Below are positions 12,618 through 37,037 of a stretch of DNA of 39,480 nt, in pieces. This DNA comes from Clostridia bacterium (lineage in GTDB: Bacteria > Bacillota > Clostridia > Oscillospirales > CAG-272): the NCBI GenBank assembly GCA_017502975.1, contig JAFVTV010000008.1:1-39480 (forward strand), given 5' to 3'. How positions within the stretch are numbered: the first letter of the stretch is position 1; every line of letters starts with the position of its first letter. The translations under genes were made by a program, and so were the position numbers. The notes below the pieces were generated by a model. It made no database searches, was not told the origin of the DNA, and saw only the letters and a program-made list of their open reading frames with translations.

Positions 12618-13907
12618 TTATTTGATGAATTCAAATTCAAAATCGTAAATGTTAACGGTGTGACCGTCGGTGCAGCCCTTTTCCTCAAGCAGCGCGATCA
12701 CGCCGTTTTTCTGGAGCGAGCGCTGGAAATAGGAAAGAGATTCGTAACTGTTAAGGTTGGTTCTGCCCATGAGGTCAATCAGCCACTTGCCCTCCACATA
12801 AAAGGTGTCGTTTTCGCGGCGCACGGTGGTCTGCATCGGATCCTCTGCGGCAATATCCGCCTCGGTGATCTCGCTTTCAAATACCGTTAAGGGCGGTAAT
12901 TCACGCAAGCGTGCGGCAACGGTGGTGACAAGCAGGTCAAGGTTTTTACCTGTGGCGGCGGAAACATAGATCAGCTCCCAGCCGTTTTCCTTTACGAATG
13001 CCTCAAATGCGGCAACGTCGGTCAGCTCCTCGTCCAGTGCGTCGCTCTTGTTTGCCACAATGATCTGCGGACGTGTGGCAAGCTGCTCGCTATAGCGTGC
13101 AAGCTCGTGATTGATCGCCTTGATATCCTCAATGGGGTCGCGCCCCTCGGTGCGTGCAACGTCTACTACGTGCAACAACAGGCGACAGCGCTCTACGTGA
13201 CGTAAAAATGCGTGCCCAAGCCCCGCGCCGTCAGCAGCGCCCTCGATAAGACCGGGAATGTCAGCGGCAACAAATCCACTCTCGCCGCCCGTGGATACCA
13301 CACCGAGATTGGGGGAGAGGGTGGTGAAGTGGTATGCGGCAATTTTGGGGCGTGCCGCGCTGATGCGAGAAAGGATAGAGGATTTTCCCACACTCGGCAT
13401 GCCGATCAGCCCCACGTCGGCAAGCATCTTGAGCTCAAGGATCAGCTCCTTTTCCTCACCCTTGGTGCCGTTTTTGGCAAACATCGGCACTTGGCGGGTT
13501 GGCGTGGCGAAGTGACGGTTGCCCCAGCCGCCTCTGCCGCCGCGGCAGCAAATAAACGGCTCGTCATCGGACATATCCTTGATGATCTTGCCTGTTGCGG
13601 CATCGCGGATAAGCGTGCCTGCGGGCACTAAGATCGTAACGTCGGGTGCGGTTGCACCGTGGAATTTTTCACCCGTGCCGTTGCCGCCGTTTTTGGCTAC
13701 AAATTTGCGGTGATCGCGGAAGAACAGCAGTGTGGTGGCGCCCTTGTCTACCTGAAAGACAATGTTGCCGCCGTGTCCGCCGTCGCCGCCGTCGGGTCCG
13801 CCCTTGGCAACGTATTTTTCGCGGTGGAAGGAAACGGCACCGTTGCCGCCGTCCCCCGCCTTTACATAAATTTTTGTTTTATCAATAATTCTTTCGGCAT
13901 CACGCAT
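12618..13907 (-). CDS. obgE: GTPase Obg
   Basis: This ribosome-associated GTPase is involved in 50S assembly and stress control. The 429 residues hold the glycine-rich Obg fold (GDGGNGAVSFHREK..., GGPDGGDGGHGGN), a GTPase domain with GMPSVGKSS, ADIPGLIEGA and NKSD motifs, and a C-terminal OCT domain near 345-429. AGGAGG lies upstream of the ATG. It overlaps the 3' end of der by 8 bases, so the two GTPases are translationally coupled. Confidence 0.97.
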   Translation of the reverse strand: MRDAERIIDKTKIYVKAGDGGNGAVSFHREKYVAKGGPDGGDGGHGGNIVFQVDKGATTLLFFRDHRKFVAKNGGNGTGEKFHGATAPDVTILVPAGTLIRDAATGKIIKDMSDDEPFICCRGGRGGWGNRHFATPTRQVPMFAKNGTKGEEKELILELKMLADVGLIGMPSVGKSSILSRISAARPKIAAYHFTTLSPNLGVVSTGGESGFVAADIPGLIEGAADGAGLGHAFLRHVERCRLLLHVVDVARTEGRDPIEDIKAINHELARYSEQLATRPQIIVANKSDALDEELTDVAAFEAFVKENGWELIYVSAATGKNLDLLVTTVAARLRELPPLTVFESEITEADIAAEDPMQTTVRRENDTFYVEGKWLIDLMGRTNLNSYESLSYFQRSLQKNGVIALLEEKGCTDGHTVNIYDFEFEFIK

Positions 13908-15237
13908 CGGGTACCTCCTCGCCCTTTTGGCGAATGATCAGCTTGATCGGTGTGCCGCGGAAGCCAAAGGTTTCACGCAGGCAGTTTTCGATAAAGCGTT
14001 GATAGGAAAAATGGAACAGCTCTGCATTGTTGCAGAAGATAACAAATGTGGGGGGCGCTACGCGGATCTGCGTCATGTAATAGATCTTTAAGCGTCTACC
14101 CTTGTCCGAGGGGGGCTGTACGCGCGTGGTGGCGTCGTTTAGCACGTCGTTAAGCATGCCCGTGGAAATGCGGAGATTTGACTGGTTGAATACATACAGT
14201 ATATGCTCAAAGATGTTGGATATGCGTTGACCTGTTTTGGCGGATACAAAAAGCAAGGGTGCATATTGCATGTAGCCGAGTGCCTCGTATACCTGCTTGG
14301 TGAAATTGGATACCGTGCTGTTATCCTTTTCAATGGTATCCCATTTGTTGACAAGGATAATGCACGCCTTGCCTGCCTCGTGCGCAATGCCCGCAATGCG
14401 CTCATCCTGCTCGGTCACGCCCTCGTTTGCATCTACCATAATAAGGCAAACGTCGGCACGCTCCACTGCCATGTGCGCACGCAATACGCTGTATTTTTCG
14501 ATATTGTCATTGATCTTTGACTGCCTGCGAATACCTGCGGTATCAATAAAGGTAAATCTGCCGTATTCGTTTTCTACCGTAGTGTCGACCGCATCTCGCG
14601 TGGTGCCCGCAATGTTTGAAACGATCATGCGCTCGCTGCCCACAAAGCGGTTGATGATAGAGGATTTGCCCGCATTTGGCTTACCGATAACGGCAACCTT
14701 AATGCTGTCGTCTTCCTCCTCCTCACTCTCTTTTTCGGGGAGTGCGGCAAGCACGGCGTCAAGCACGTCACCCGTGCCGCTGCCGTGGATCGAGGATACA
14801 GGTATGGGCTCTGCCTCAAAGCCAAACTCGTAAAATTCGTAAAACTCGAAGGGTAAGGCACCCACGCGGTCGCATTTGTTGATGGCGGGTACAATGGGCT
14901 TGCCGCTTTTTTTCAGCAGTACCGCAATGTCGCGGTCGGCAGCGGTAACACCCGTGCGCACGTCGCAAAGAAGCACGATAACGTCAGCGCTCTCAATGGC
15001 AAGCTCGGCTTGAAATTTCATCTGCGACAGGATCGCATCGTCGGTCTTGGGTTCAATGCCGCCCGTGTCAATGAGGGTCAGCTTTTTGCCGCACCATTCG
15101 GTTTCACCGTAAATGCGGTCACGTGTAACACCGGGGGTGTCCTCTACAATAGAACGGCGCTCGCCGATCAGTTTATTAAAAAATGTGCTTTTGCCAACGT
15201 TGGGTCTGCCAACGATAGCCACAATCGGTTTTGCCAT
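13900..15237 (-). CDS. der: Ribosome biogenesis GTPase Der (EngA)
   Basis: This double-GTPase is needed for 50S maturation. Two consecutive G domains are visible: GRPNVGKST (residues 8-16) with DTGGIEP and NKCD, then GKPNAGKSS with DTAGIRR and NKWD, followed by the KH-like C-terminal domain ending IKLIIRQKGEE. Length 445 is normal. AGGAGG precedes the ATG. The RAYT gene lies 50 bases upstream; der must be transcribed through it from the DUF512 promoter at 17186-17214 or from an unseen internal promoter. Confidence 0.97.
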   Translation of the reverse strand: MAKPIVAIVGRPNVGKSTFFNKLIGERRSIVEDTPGVTRDRIYGETEWCGKKLTLIDTGGIEPKTDDAILSQMKFQAELAIESADVIVLLCDVRTGVTAADRDIAVLLKKSGKPIVPAINKCDRVGALPFEFYEFYEFGFEAEPIPVSSIHGSGTGDVLDAVLAALPEKESEEEEDDSIKVAVIGKPNAGKSSIINRFVGSERMIVSNIAGTTRDAVDTTVENEYGRFTFIDTAGIRRQSKINDNIEKYSVLRAHMAVERADVCLIMVDANEGVTEQDERIAGIAHEAGKACIILVNKWDTIEKDNSTVSNFTKQVYEALGYMQYAPLLFVSAKTGQRISNIFEHILYVFNQSNLRISTGMLNDVLNDATTRVQPPSDKGRRLKIYYMTQIRVAPPTFVIFCNNAELFHFSYQRFIENCLRETFGFRGTPIKLIIRQKGEEVPDA

Positions 15238-15287: not shown

Positions 15288-15797
15288 TTATTTGTTGTCT
15301 TCGCAGTACAGGCTATCCTCGCGCCACGTTTGCGGATTTTTTGCGATGTATTGGGCGATCTCCTCATATTCGCGCATGCTCCGTATCACGTGGTCATAAA
15401 AGGAGCGTTGGAATAATTTGCCCGCATGATAGCTTTGATTGCATAATCGAGTGGTTAACGATTTAAACGCACAAATAATATCGGAAACCGTAGGGGAGGG
15501 GCTTGCTCCTCCCGCTTTCGTTAAATGCAAGATAAGGTGGATATGGTTTGGCATGATAACATGTGTGTCAACATGTGCGTTGGGAAACCTTGCTTGTAAA
15601 AGTGATAATTGTTGTTTGGCAATTTCGCCGCAGGGCGTTAATTTGATCACGGGAGGAGCAAGCCCCTCCCCTACGATCGTTGCAAGCGTTTGCTTGCGCT
15701 GATGTGTGCAAATTGTGATAAAATACAGCCCTTCGGTACTGTAATCTATTTCACTCCACCTTGTGGGCTTGCGCTTGGGTAGCTTATTGTCAATCAT
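15288..15797 (-). CDS. REP-associated tyrosine transposase (RAYT, Y1_Tnp family)
   Basis: The 169-residue HUH single-strand transposase is of the IS200-related TnpA-REP branch. It shows YFITICTHQRKQ near 25, the HUH motif in VIMPNHIHLIL (His85, His87), LFQRSFYDHVIR near 129, and the catalytic Tyr150 in IAQYIAKNP. RAYTs recognise and move REP palindromes headed by GTAG. Two exact inverted 25-base REP copies (15650-15674 and 15490-15514) are translated in frame here as VGEGLAPP (42-49) and GGASPSPT (96-103). ATG 15797 overlaps the DUF512 stop by one base (TGATG). All catalytic residues are present, so it may be active. Confidence 0.88.
   Translation of the reverse strand: MIDNKLPKRKPTRWSEIDYSTEGLYFITICTHQRKQTLATIVGEGLAPPVIKLTPCGEIAKQQLSLLQARFPNAHVDTHVIMPNHIHLILHLTKAGGASPSPTVSDIICAFKSLTTRLCNQSYHAGKLFQRSFYDHVIRSMREYEEIAQYIAKNPQTWREDSLYCEDNK
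15490..15514 (+). repeat. REP palindrome, family 1, inside the RAYT gene
   Basis: GTAG is followed by the arms GGGAGGGG and CTCCTCCC around a 4-base loop. GTAG at the foot of an imperfect hairpin is the recognised hallmark of RAYT-linked REPs. It is an exact inverted copy of 15650-15674. Confidence 0.8.
15650..15674 (-). repeat. REP palindrome, family 1, second copy inside the RAYT gene
   Basis: Exact reverse complement of 15490-15514, with 135 bases between them. The HUH motif codons lie between the two copies. Confidence 0.8.
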
Positions 15798-17119
15798 CAC
15801 GTGTGCTTCCCCACAAATGCCGCGAGGAGCGCGGCACCGTCGCCCTTAATGGGGGTTACGGGCACGCCAAGGGTGAGGGAAAGCTCTTGCGGGGTCATGC
15901 CGCAAAGAAACAGATCGCCCTCTGCGCGCAGTGTGGTGGCGGGGATCAGCAGCTCGTCCCCTAAGGGCTTGCCCTTTAGCTGCTCTGCCATATCCTTGCC
16001 TGTCAAAAGACCTGCTACGGTAATTTCTTTGCCAAAAAATCGGTTTTCAATCTCGTATACTGATATTTTTATGCCATTTAGTCGCTTTTCAAGCAATGAG
16101 GCGAGGTAGCGTATGGTGGGTGCCGCCGCCTTGCCTGTGGCAAGCGAAACGTGGCGAGGACCGTAATGCTCGGCATCGCCCACAAGGTCATAAAGATAAT
16201 CAAGTTCAAAGGCAAATTCCGCCATAAGCGAGCGCAGCATGCCAACGCCGTTTTCTATTTGCTCATAGTCGCCGTAATAGGCTTCCTCGGGTAAGGGGAG
16301 CTCTGCCTTTAAATAAAATTCATCCGCTACGCAAAACATGCGGTAGCCAAGCTCGGCAAGGCACGCGTCGCCAACGCGGTTGACCTGCTCAATCACCGCG
16401 CGGCACTCCTCCTTGGTAAAGGGGGTGAGAGGGTAAAGCCCCTCGCGGTAGCGCGTAAGGCCTGCGGGCACGATCGAAACGCTTGACATGTGGGGCGCAA
16501 GCCCTTTGAGATCCTGCATGGTGCGGTCAAGCTCAGCGCCGTCGTTGATACCACGGCAAAGCACGACCTGCCCGCACAGGCGAATGCCTGCTTCGGCAAG
16601 GCGGTCAAGATAAGAGAGCACCTTGCCCGCGCGGCGGTTTTTCATCATATCACAGCGCAACTGCGGATTGGTGGTGTGCACCGATACGTTGACGGGAGAA
16701 ATGCGCATTTTAATAATGCGGTCGATATCCTTATCGCGCAAATTGGTAAGCGTGATGTAGTTGCCGTGTAAAAAGGAAAGGCGCGCATCATCATCCTTAA
16801 AGTAAAGAGAGGGGCGCAAGCCCTTTGGGAGCTGATCGATAAAGCAAAAGATGCAGCGGTTGGCACAGCATTGCTTTTTATCCATTAGCGGCGTTTCAAA
16901 CACAAGGCCGATATCATCGTATGTCCCTTTTTTTACGGTAACGGTAAAGGGAGTGCCGTTTCGCAAAAGAGATAACTCTACTGTTTCCTCTGCCAAATAA
17001 AAGCGGTAGTCAAGTACGTCGCTAATCTCATTGCCGTTGATGGCGATCAGCACGTCGCCCGCAAGCAGACCTGCTGCCGCCGCGCGTGAGCGCGGTTCAA
17101 CCTCACATATTTGCACCAT
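15797..17119 (-). CDS. DUF512 family PDZ/radical SAM protein
   Basis: The 440-residue protein has an N-terminal PDZ-like domain (ICEVEPRSRAAAAGLLAGD, INGNEISDVLDY), then a radical SAM cluster C85-x3-C89-x2-C92 inside CCANRCIFCFIDQLPKG, SVHTTNP, and the C-terminal DUF512 region (EIENRFFGKEITVAGLLTG, DELLIPATTLR). Family members sit beside der in many Firmicutes and have no established reaction. GGGGGAA lies upstream of the ATG. It is the first gene of a minus-strand operon from the promoter at 17186-17214, and its stop overlaps the RAYT start. Confidence 0.88.
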   Translation of the reverse strand: MVQICEVEPRSRAAAAGLLAGDVLIAINGNEISDVLDYRFYLAEETVELSLLRNGTPFTVTVKKGTYDDIGLVFETPLMDKKQCCANRCIFCFIDQLPKGLRPSLYFKDDDARLSFLHGNYITLTNLRDKDIDRIIKMRISPVNVSVHTTNPQLRCDMMKNRRAGKVLSYLDRLAEAGIRLCGQVVLCRGINDGAELDRTMQDLKGLAPHMSSVSIVPAGLTRYREGLYPLTPFTKEECRAVIEQVNRVGDACLAELGYRMFCVADEFYLKAELPLPEEAYYGDYEQIENGVGMLRSLMAEFAFELDYLYDLVGDAEHYGPRHVSLATGKAAAPTIRYLASLLEKRLNGIKISVYEIENRFFGKEITVAGLLTGKDMAEQLKGKPLGDELLIPATTLRAEGDLFLCGMTPQELSLTLGVPVTPIKGDGAALLAAFVGKHT

Positions 17120-19762: not shown

Positions 19763-19789
19763 GTAGGGACAGGCGTCCTCGACTGTCCG
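19763..19789 (+). repeat. REP palindrome, family 2, copy 1
   Basis: GTAG is followed by GGACAG, an inner GGCGTCC-containing region, and CTGTCC. An inverted copy lies at 19899-19925 and a single direct copy at 37982-38007. The 109 bases between the inverted copies hold no supported gene. Confidence 0.7.
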
Positions 19790-36924: not shown

Positions 36925-36949
36925 GTAGGGGAGGGGATTGCTCCTCCCG
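36925..36949 (+). repeat. REP palindrome, family 1
   Basis: It is identical to the RAYT-internal copy 15490-15514 except for one loop base (ATTG instead of CTTG). It lies 10 bases upstream of the accessory promoter -35. Confidence 0.8.
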
Positions 36950-36968
36950 AAAAAATCGAACAAAAAAG

Positions 36969-37037
36969 CGGGAGCACCAATATGCTTCGCCTTGCTCGGC
37001 GTCAAGTTTGCTACGCAAACATTGGGCGCTCCCCTAC
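36969..37037 (-). repeat. Long REP-like palindrome, inverted partner of 36925-36949
   Basis: On the minus strand GTAG is followed by GGGAGCGCCCAATG, about 40 bases containing TTTGCGTAGCAAA, and ATTGGTGCTCCCG. With 36925-36949 it makes a doublet with outward-facing GTAG feet and a 19-base spacer. Confidence 0.6.

Follow-up and report, generated by a model that had tools for sequence, protein, structure and literature searches.

REPs that are translated in frame are already known from the genes of REP-associated tyrosine transposases (RAYTs). According to the accessible parts of the survey of Quentin et al. (2018, PMC6006769), they occur inside the RAYT genes of subclass 2.4, generally between the HuH and the Y motif, and the variable region of these proteins is supposed to have perhaps little impact. 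The subclass is characterised there by the motifs NH[IFV]H, WQ, and YIxNNP (Table 1 of the survey). Here, we compare with this subclass a RAYT gene that contains two in-frame REPs, and follow these REPs through the related genes and their genomes.

The RAYT gene of the window and its two arms

The window, by which the whole analysed stretch of 39,480 nucleotides is meant, is contig C5 of a 1.66-Mb genome that is 84% complete. Its RAYT gene (15288-15797, minus strand, 169 residues) was found as an open reading frame, is supported by Pfam and NCBIfam profile matches and by its relatives, and is located between the genes of an EngA-type GTPase (13900-15237) and a radical-SAM/DUF512 protein (15797-17119), the end of the latter being overlapped. 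The protein matches the Pfam family Y1_Tnp with 25.8 bits, which is above the cut-off of 23, and the NCBIfam family REP_Tyr_transpos (NF047646) with 67.3 bits (E 1.3e-18), which is under the curated cut-off of 80, a naming threshold and no biological feature. It has the HuH and Y---NP motifs of the RAYT/TnpAREP class 2 in the form of NHIH (residues 84-87) and YIAKNP (residues 150-155). Within a 24-row alignment of relatives H85, H87, Y150, N154, and P155 are invariant, in agreement with the sequence-only reading, a model's earlier reading of this DNA, which had called the catalytic residues intact. NHIH corresponds to the NH[IFV]H motif of subclass 2.4. At the WQ position the window protein has FQ and the consensus of the alignment is WQ, and the Y motif is YIAKNP in the window (consensus YIxENP) instead of the YIxNNP of the subclass.

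Arm 1 (15650-15675, minus strand), which is upstream in coding direction, is a GTAG-tagged REP hairpin that codes for VGEGLAPP before the HIH motif. Arm 2 (15489-15514) is the same REP but inverted, with its GTAG on the plus strand, and codes for GGASPSPT after HIH. Both peptides had been proposed before and are indeed found in frame in the 169-residue minus-strand reading frame. The proposed 25-base arms (15490-15514 and 15650-15674) match each other exactly as reverse complements, and the exact repeat even extends to 26 bases. The GTAG tags of both arms point outward. Between the arms is a 135-bp stretch (15515-15649, minus strand) that codes for the catalytic core and includes the HIH codons (15537-15545). 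Y150, presumably the catalytic tyrosine, has its codon (15348-15350, minus strand) outside the arm pair. Arm 2 is therefore found between HuH and Y like the REPs of subclass 2.4, whereas a position before HuH, as that of arm 1, is not described in the accessible parts of PMC6006769.

In DNA folding each single arm forms a hairpin with the GTAG unpaired at its foot. Single arms of the window type fold modestly better than shuffled sequences (z -1.6), and three arms of other types reach z-values of -3.7 to -5.4. When both arms are part of one 205-nt single strand, they pair with each other instead (z -8.2, DNA parameters).

With up to three mismatches the arm motif is present in three copies in the window and in none of 100 shuffles. 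The third copy, found by the pattern search, is an intergenic REP of the window RAYT's type with one mismatch (36925-36949, plus strand). More palindromic sequence follows, as does a GTAG tag in inverted orientation near 37037, and the entire element (36925-37037) apparently is a mosaic. In the genome a loosened pattern (at most three mismatches) has seven matches, two of them in the RAYT gene, which means that the GTAG REPs linked to the gene are also present at other places of the genome. At C21:11999-12087 (L005/L006) two window-type REPs in one orientation, 64 bp apart, are adjoined by a diverged third copy. The second RAYT of the genome (L009) is 42% identical to that of the window and has, at the two corresponding places, another REP as an exact inverted pair. 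This REP type has seven matches in the genome, two of which are inside the L009 gene; an exact copy is also found in the window (19763-19788, plus strand), L009 itself being encoded on another contig.

The internal pair in relatives and the REPs of their genomes

Within the family of these gut bacteria, RAYT matches were obtained in 67 of 146 genomes (E <= 1e-10), which are mostly fragmented drafts. The 111 genes examined, from 62 genomes, comprise 31 loci given by the search and 80 matches chosen by eye for their length; this set omits other matches, some of 110-138 residues (e.g. in G006, G101, G121, G122, G126, and G143), and 20 mostly short fragment loci were added later outside of it. A pair of GTAG hairpins in plus-then-minus order is present in 102 of the 111 genes, which are related, so that the counts are not independent. 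Codon-shuffled controls contained no pair in each of 20 rounds with 111 genes, and flank controls had one in 3 of 393 windows of 630 bp. Nine genes are without a pair according to the detector, which demands GTAGG plus a hairpin and scores mutated tags (as in L014, L033, and L150) as misses. The spacer between the arms mostly has about 130-165 bp, but longer and shorter cases exist. The sequence-only reading had mentioned similar peptide strings in other clostridial transposases and considered a stable arrangement, which is borne out by these numbers.

The same test detects a pair in 57 of the 110 loci L123-L232, which come from named records, most of them with titles that refer to Oscillospiraceae or Clostridia metagenome genomes, and from the phylum level. 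Of these 57, two repeat genes of the window genome itself, and some have one arm outside the coding part. The pair was also found in a Chitinispirillales record (L158), and an Omnitrophota record (L150) has a pair with one mutated tag, which was not counted. The search at the phylum level gave a match (E <= 1e-15) in 23 of 348 genomes, and 3 of its 27 loci outside the window genome have the pair (L207, L218 with one arm downstream, and the weak L232). Several loci deviate from the common design. In L160 the internal pair faces inward, and L202 and L228 have an in-gene double-foot palindrome with GTAG at both ends, which in L202 is accompanied by copies just upstream and downstream. L115 (G012) encodes a RAYT of one REP type but contains an extra hairpin that resembles the window type minus one base and is perhaps a later REP insertion.

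REPs that match the arms are scattered over the genome of the respective RAYT. Arms taken from named records were used to search the genomes of these records, with at most two mismatches and with the RAYT arms counted in. The REP predicted from the arm was found 43 times in Gemmiger formicilis DFI.6.10, 30 times in Ruminococcus flavefaciens SAb67 (eight exact matches and 19 of a single two-mismatch variant), 31 times in an R. flavefaciens metagenome genome, 56 times in Flavonifractor sp. An10, and 36 times in a Flavonifractor metagenome genome. The Flavonifractor type was absent from Gemmiger and SAb67, and the Gemmiger type from the other four genomes. In addition, copies of four types outside the fetched RAYT genes were counted in 80 genomes; five genomes with a RAYT match but lacking a fetched gene are left out, and the 18 genomes without a RAYT match are the first listed ones, two further ones having been dropped. 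Type A copies are present in 11 of 13 genomes with a type-A RAYT, in 16 of 49 with other RAYTs, and in 1 of 18 without a RAYT match. The corresponding numbers are 7/7, 23/55, and 1/18 for type C, 13/15, 19/47, and 2/18 for type F (with the window genome counted as type F on account of the RAYT fragment L011 at a contig end), and 6/8, 26/54, and 2/18 for type B. The association of type B is not significant in terms of presence (Fisher 0.26) but has a p-value of 0.0098 in a rank test. The numbers for other RAYTs stand unrevised and may include mistyped genomes (G002, G010, G107, and G043 for type C, G096 for type B), whose hits fall in or beside unfetched RAYT matches. A reversed control pattern did not match in any of the 80 genomes. 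The earlier proposal of a REP doublet is supported in that the gene contains such a doublet. The arms of these genes match REPs elsewhere in their genomes, and the outcome that it had named as contrary, the same residues with unrelated nucleotides and without REPs in the genome, is the opposite of what was found.

Many genomes carry a REP type that is not represented among their fetched RAYTs. G070, for which no type-B RAYT was fetched, contains nine type-B REP doublets spaced by exactly 101 nt from start to start, which represent a uniform REPIN population.

Arms as conserved hairpins and REPs in the flanks

At the level of the nucleic acid, each arm is conserved in the form of a hairpin tagged with GTAG, whatever the codon use and, within limits, the reading frame and position, and both arms follow the RAYT lineage. 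The 146 genes compared have 80 different first-arm sequences, and the two arms of one gene differ by 1.05 edits on average, compared with 7.95 edits if arm 2 is permuted among the genes (the minimum of 500 permutations being 7.29). The arms are identical in 80 of 149 distinct paired genes and differ in 69, of which 11 were set aside because of unequal length. In the remaining 58 genes there are 42 differences in the loop, 28 compensated stem pairs, six differences of the G-T type, eight breaking ones, and two double non-pairing ones. Nine of the 28 compensated pairs are one change of a single lineage and three more belong to another lineage, so that there are fewer independent events, and in this stem count arm 1 of L099, L103, L104, and L108 was first paired with a weak chance hairpin, their real arm 2 being listed separately. 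The frequent differences between the arms, together with the loop changes and the compensation within the arms, disfavour pairing between the arms as the selected feature, although it may have an extra role beside the hairpins.

The constraint is also visible at synonymous sites. Where two proteins share the same residue, the codons are identical in a fraction of 0.94 in the arms versus 0.50 outside at 60-70% protein identity, and of 0.76 versus 0.43 at 30-40% identity. The reading frames of the arms vary between the genes (129, 13, 2, and 2 of the 146 genes), and in L075 and L101 arms are found at other places within the gene. In a tree computed with the arms masked, ten first-arm types require 10 changes, compared with at least 41 in 100 shuffles; single-linkage clustering had chained unlike REP types, and exact types with at least three genes (67 of 146) were used instead. 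In 76 pairs of RAYTs from the same genome, distant paralogues have retained different arms and close ones share them, and in genes of at least 80% identity an arm is nearer to the same arm of the other gene (0.35 edits) than to the opposite arm (1.84 edits). Both observations disfavour a genome-wide gene conversion of the arms.

GTAG hairpins of any type are found within 350 bp on either side of 25 of 137 paired genes versus 39 of 56 unpaired ones (Fisher 1.7e-11, descent ignored), the unpaired class including several genes whose tag is mutated or which have a single internal REP (L014, L033, and L150). The background in the far flanks is 8 of 120 for paired and 6 of 44 for unpaired genes. In independent pairs from the tree, the expected direction was obtained 5.6 times and the opposite one 0.8 times on average, which is not significant (median p 0.125). 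Therefore, we do not claim that internal REPs strictly replace flanking ones, and the trade-off between inside and outside is confounded with descent. REPs of their own type are present within 500 bp outside of 10 of the 95 tested paired genes. The RAYT of the window does not have the flanking REPs of a REPtron, as the sole other match in the window (at most three mismatches) is 21 kb away. Genes with one arm inside and the partner upstream (L157, L178, L201, and L205) or downstream (L195 and L218) look like a series from flanking to internal REPs. Other RAYTs without the pair, for example L176, L188, L190, and L221, have no REP inside or near the gene.

What the pair might do and how it compares with known systems

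In the explanation that we prefer and regard as fairly likely, the RAYT gene carries its own cognate REP as a built-in, outward-facing inverted pair, which could be described as an "inside-out REPtron". The encoded enzyme would recognise exactly the hairpins of its arms as single-stranded DNA, by analogy to Escherichia coli TnpAREP, for which recognition of its REP as single-stranded DNA has been published (PMC8266576, accessible parts). The internal pair would be a target linked in cis that does the job of the flanking REPs of ordinary REPtrons, and could hold enzyme and target physically together both in vertical descent and upon transfer. It might also provide a permanent seed or a putative binding site at the enzyme's own gene, which might possibly be autoregulatory. 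Judged from the sequences, one can probably read from the gene which DNA is recognised by its enzyme. A further-reaching but unlikely proposal would be a class of RAYTs with an obligatory in-frame self-tag. To such an enzyme its own gene would be a single-stranded REP doublet that it has to find, and enzyme and REP would stay matched by virtue of this self-recognition. If this were true, a failed self-recognition could destroy the enzyme through loss of its core, and the gene alone would spell out the DNA specificity of the enzyme.

The arms might instead control the mRNA, if they formed RNA hairpins or a single long stem and in this way limited translation or let the enzyme bind its own message. 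The compensation within the arms suits RNA as well as DNA, and the strand spanning both arms folds strongly, as calculated with DNA parameters. However, the GTAG of arm 2 is present only on the non-coding strand and is invisible in the message, and this opposite orientation of the tag would favour DNA over the message as substrate. In addition, the same arm types recur as dispersed genomic REPs, and because the loops often differ between the arms of one gene, exact pairing between the arms is not the thing that is kept. We consider such a control rather unlikely.

Somewhat harder to believe is that the arms are hitchhikers, that is REPs inserted with little effect into surface loops that tolerate them, as Quentin et al. 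(2018) interpret them for subclass 2.4. In-frame REPs do occur within many unrelated genes according to the accessible parts of PMC3733652, and the arms occupy length-variable stretches of the protein and differ in position in a few genes. A near-universal outward pair, the covariation of its arms, the compensated stems, and the constraint on the codons would nevertheless be unexpected for neutral inserts, and distant paralogues of one genome retain their own types.

The sequence-only reading had also suggested that the pair lets the gene move as a unit. Cases in which the core has been lost are indeed found. In four of the 20 fragment loci (L245, L246, L247, and the second copy in L248) the core is missing and the breakpoint, as determined by eye, is in an arm. 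The fifth core-less relative is encoded in the window genome (C21:4713-5048, L010/L012), where the arms are fused to one short double-foot palindrome, the frame is still open, and the HuH motif is gone. Double-foot REPs could arise by such a central deletion, as noted in the accessible parts of PMC6006769. Compared with L061, a relative of the same REP type, the junction at C21:4713-5048 shares the 4-bp repeat GTCC, as might be expected from replication slippage. Against a mobile or excisable gene or core, the window locus is collinear with that of a genome of the same genus (93.7% identical over 3.4 kb), close RAYT copies within one genome are few (one pair at 94%, others at most 75%), the pair brackets only the codons of the core, and the losses are core deletions. 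We therefore rejected the mobile unit, which is very improbable. Finally, conservation of the loops as peptides with the DNA identity as by-product is hardly credible and was rejected, because, although V-G and P-T are common at the feet of the arms, the residues vary widely between the types in the 24-row alignment, synonymous sites are constrained, arm 2 ends in a second frame in 13 and in a third frame in 2 of 146 genes (131 having the usual one), and the arms can shift their position.

The findings bear on how RAYTs and REPs stay matched in the long term, and on what RAYTs do for the cell. With a gene that carries its own cognate REP, the probable target could be read from the gene, which would provide naturally matched enzymes and targets from which the specificity code might be deciphered. 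The REPs in the genes, so far presumed to be harmless inserts, would be seen as an element under constraint.

The outward pair around HuH, the covariation of its arms, and the constraint independent of coding appear to be new. In the accessible parts of the literature, including PMC6006769, PMC8266576, PMC3733652, PMC2817692, and PMC8049555, we found neither an outward pair around HuH nor arm covariation, codon constraint, or a link between internal REPs and missing flanking ones. The genes share with TnpAREP subclass 2.4 and RAYT group 4 the in-frame, GTAG-tagged REPs inside the gene, NH[IFV]H, a variable insertion after the HuH strand, and the lack of a listed C-terminal tail domain. They differ from the reports on subclass 2.4 in that the outward pair mostly encloses HuH from both sides, covaries, is constrained independently of the codons, and is found in Clostridia. 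As in a REPtron, a RAYT gene is physically linked to REPs dispersed in the genome, but here these are within the coding sequence. Like REPINs and BIMEs, the pair in the gene consists of two inverted REPs with outward GTAG tags, but its spacer codes for a catalytic core, whereas the doublets of G070 follow each other at 101 nt from start to start. Palindromes that are read in frame in genes are likewise represented by Rickettsia palindromic elements and by other REPs within genes; in the accessible parts of PMC3733652 such repeats are scattered over unrelated genes, whereas the pair described here is tied to the gene of its presumed processing enzyme and matched to its lineage.
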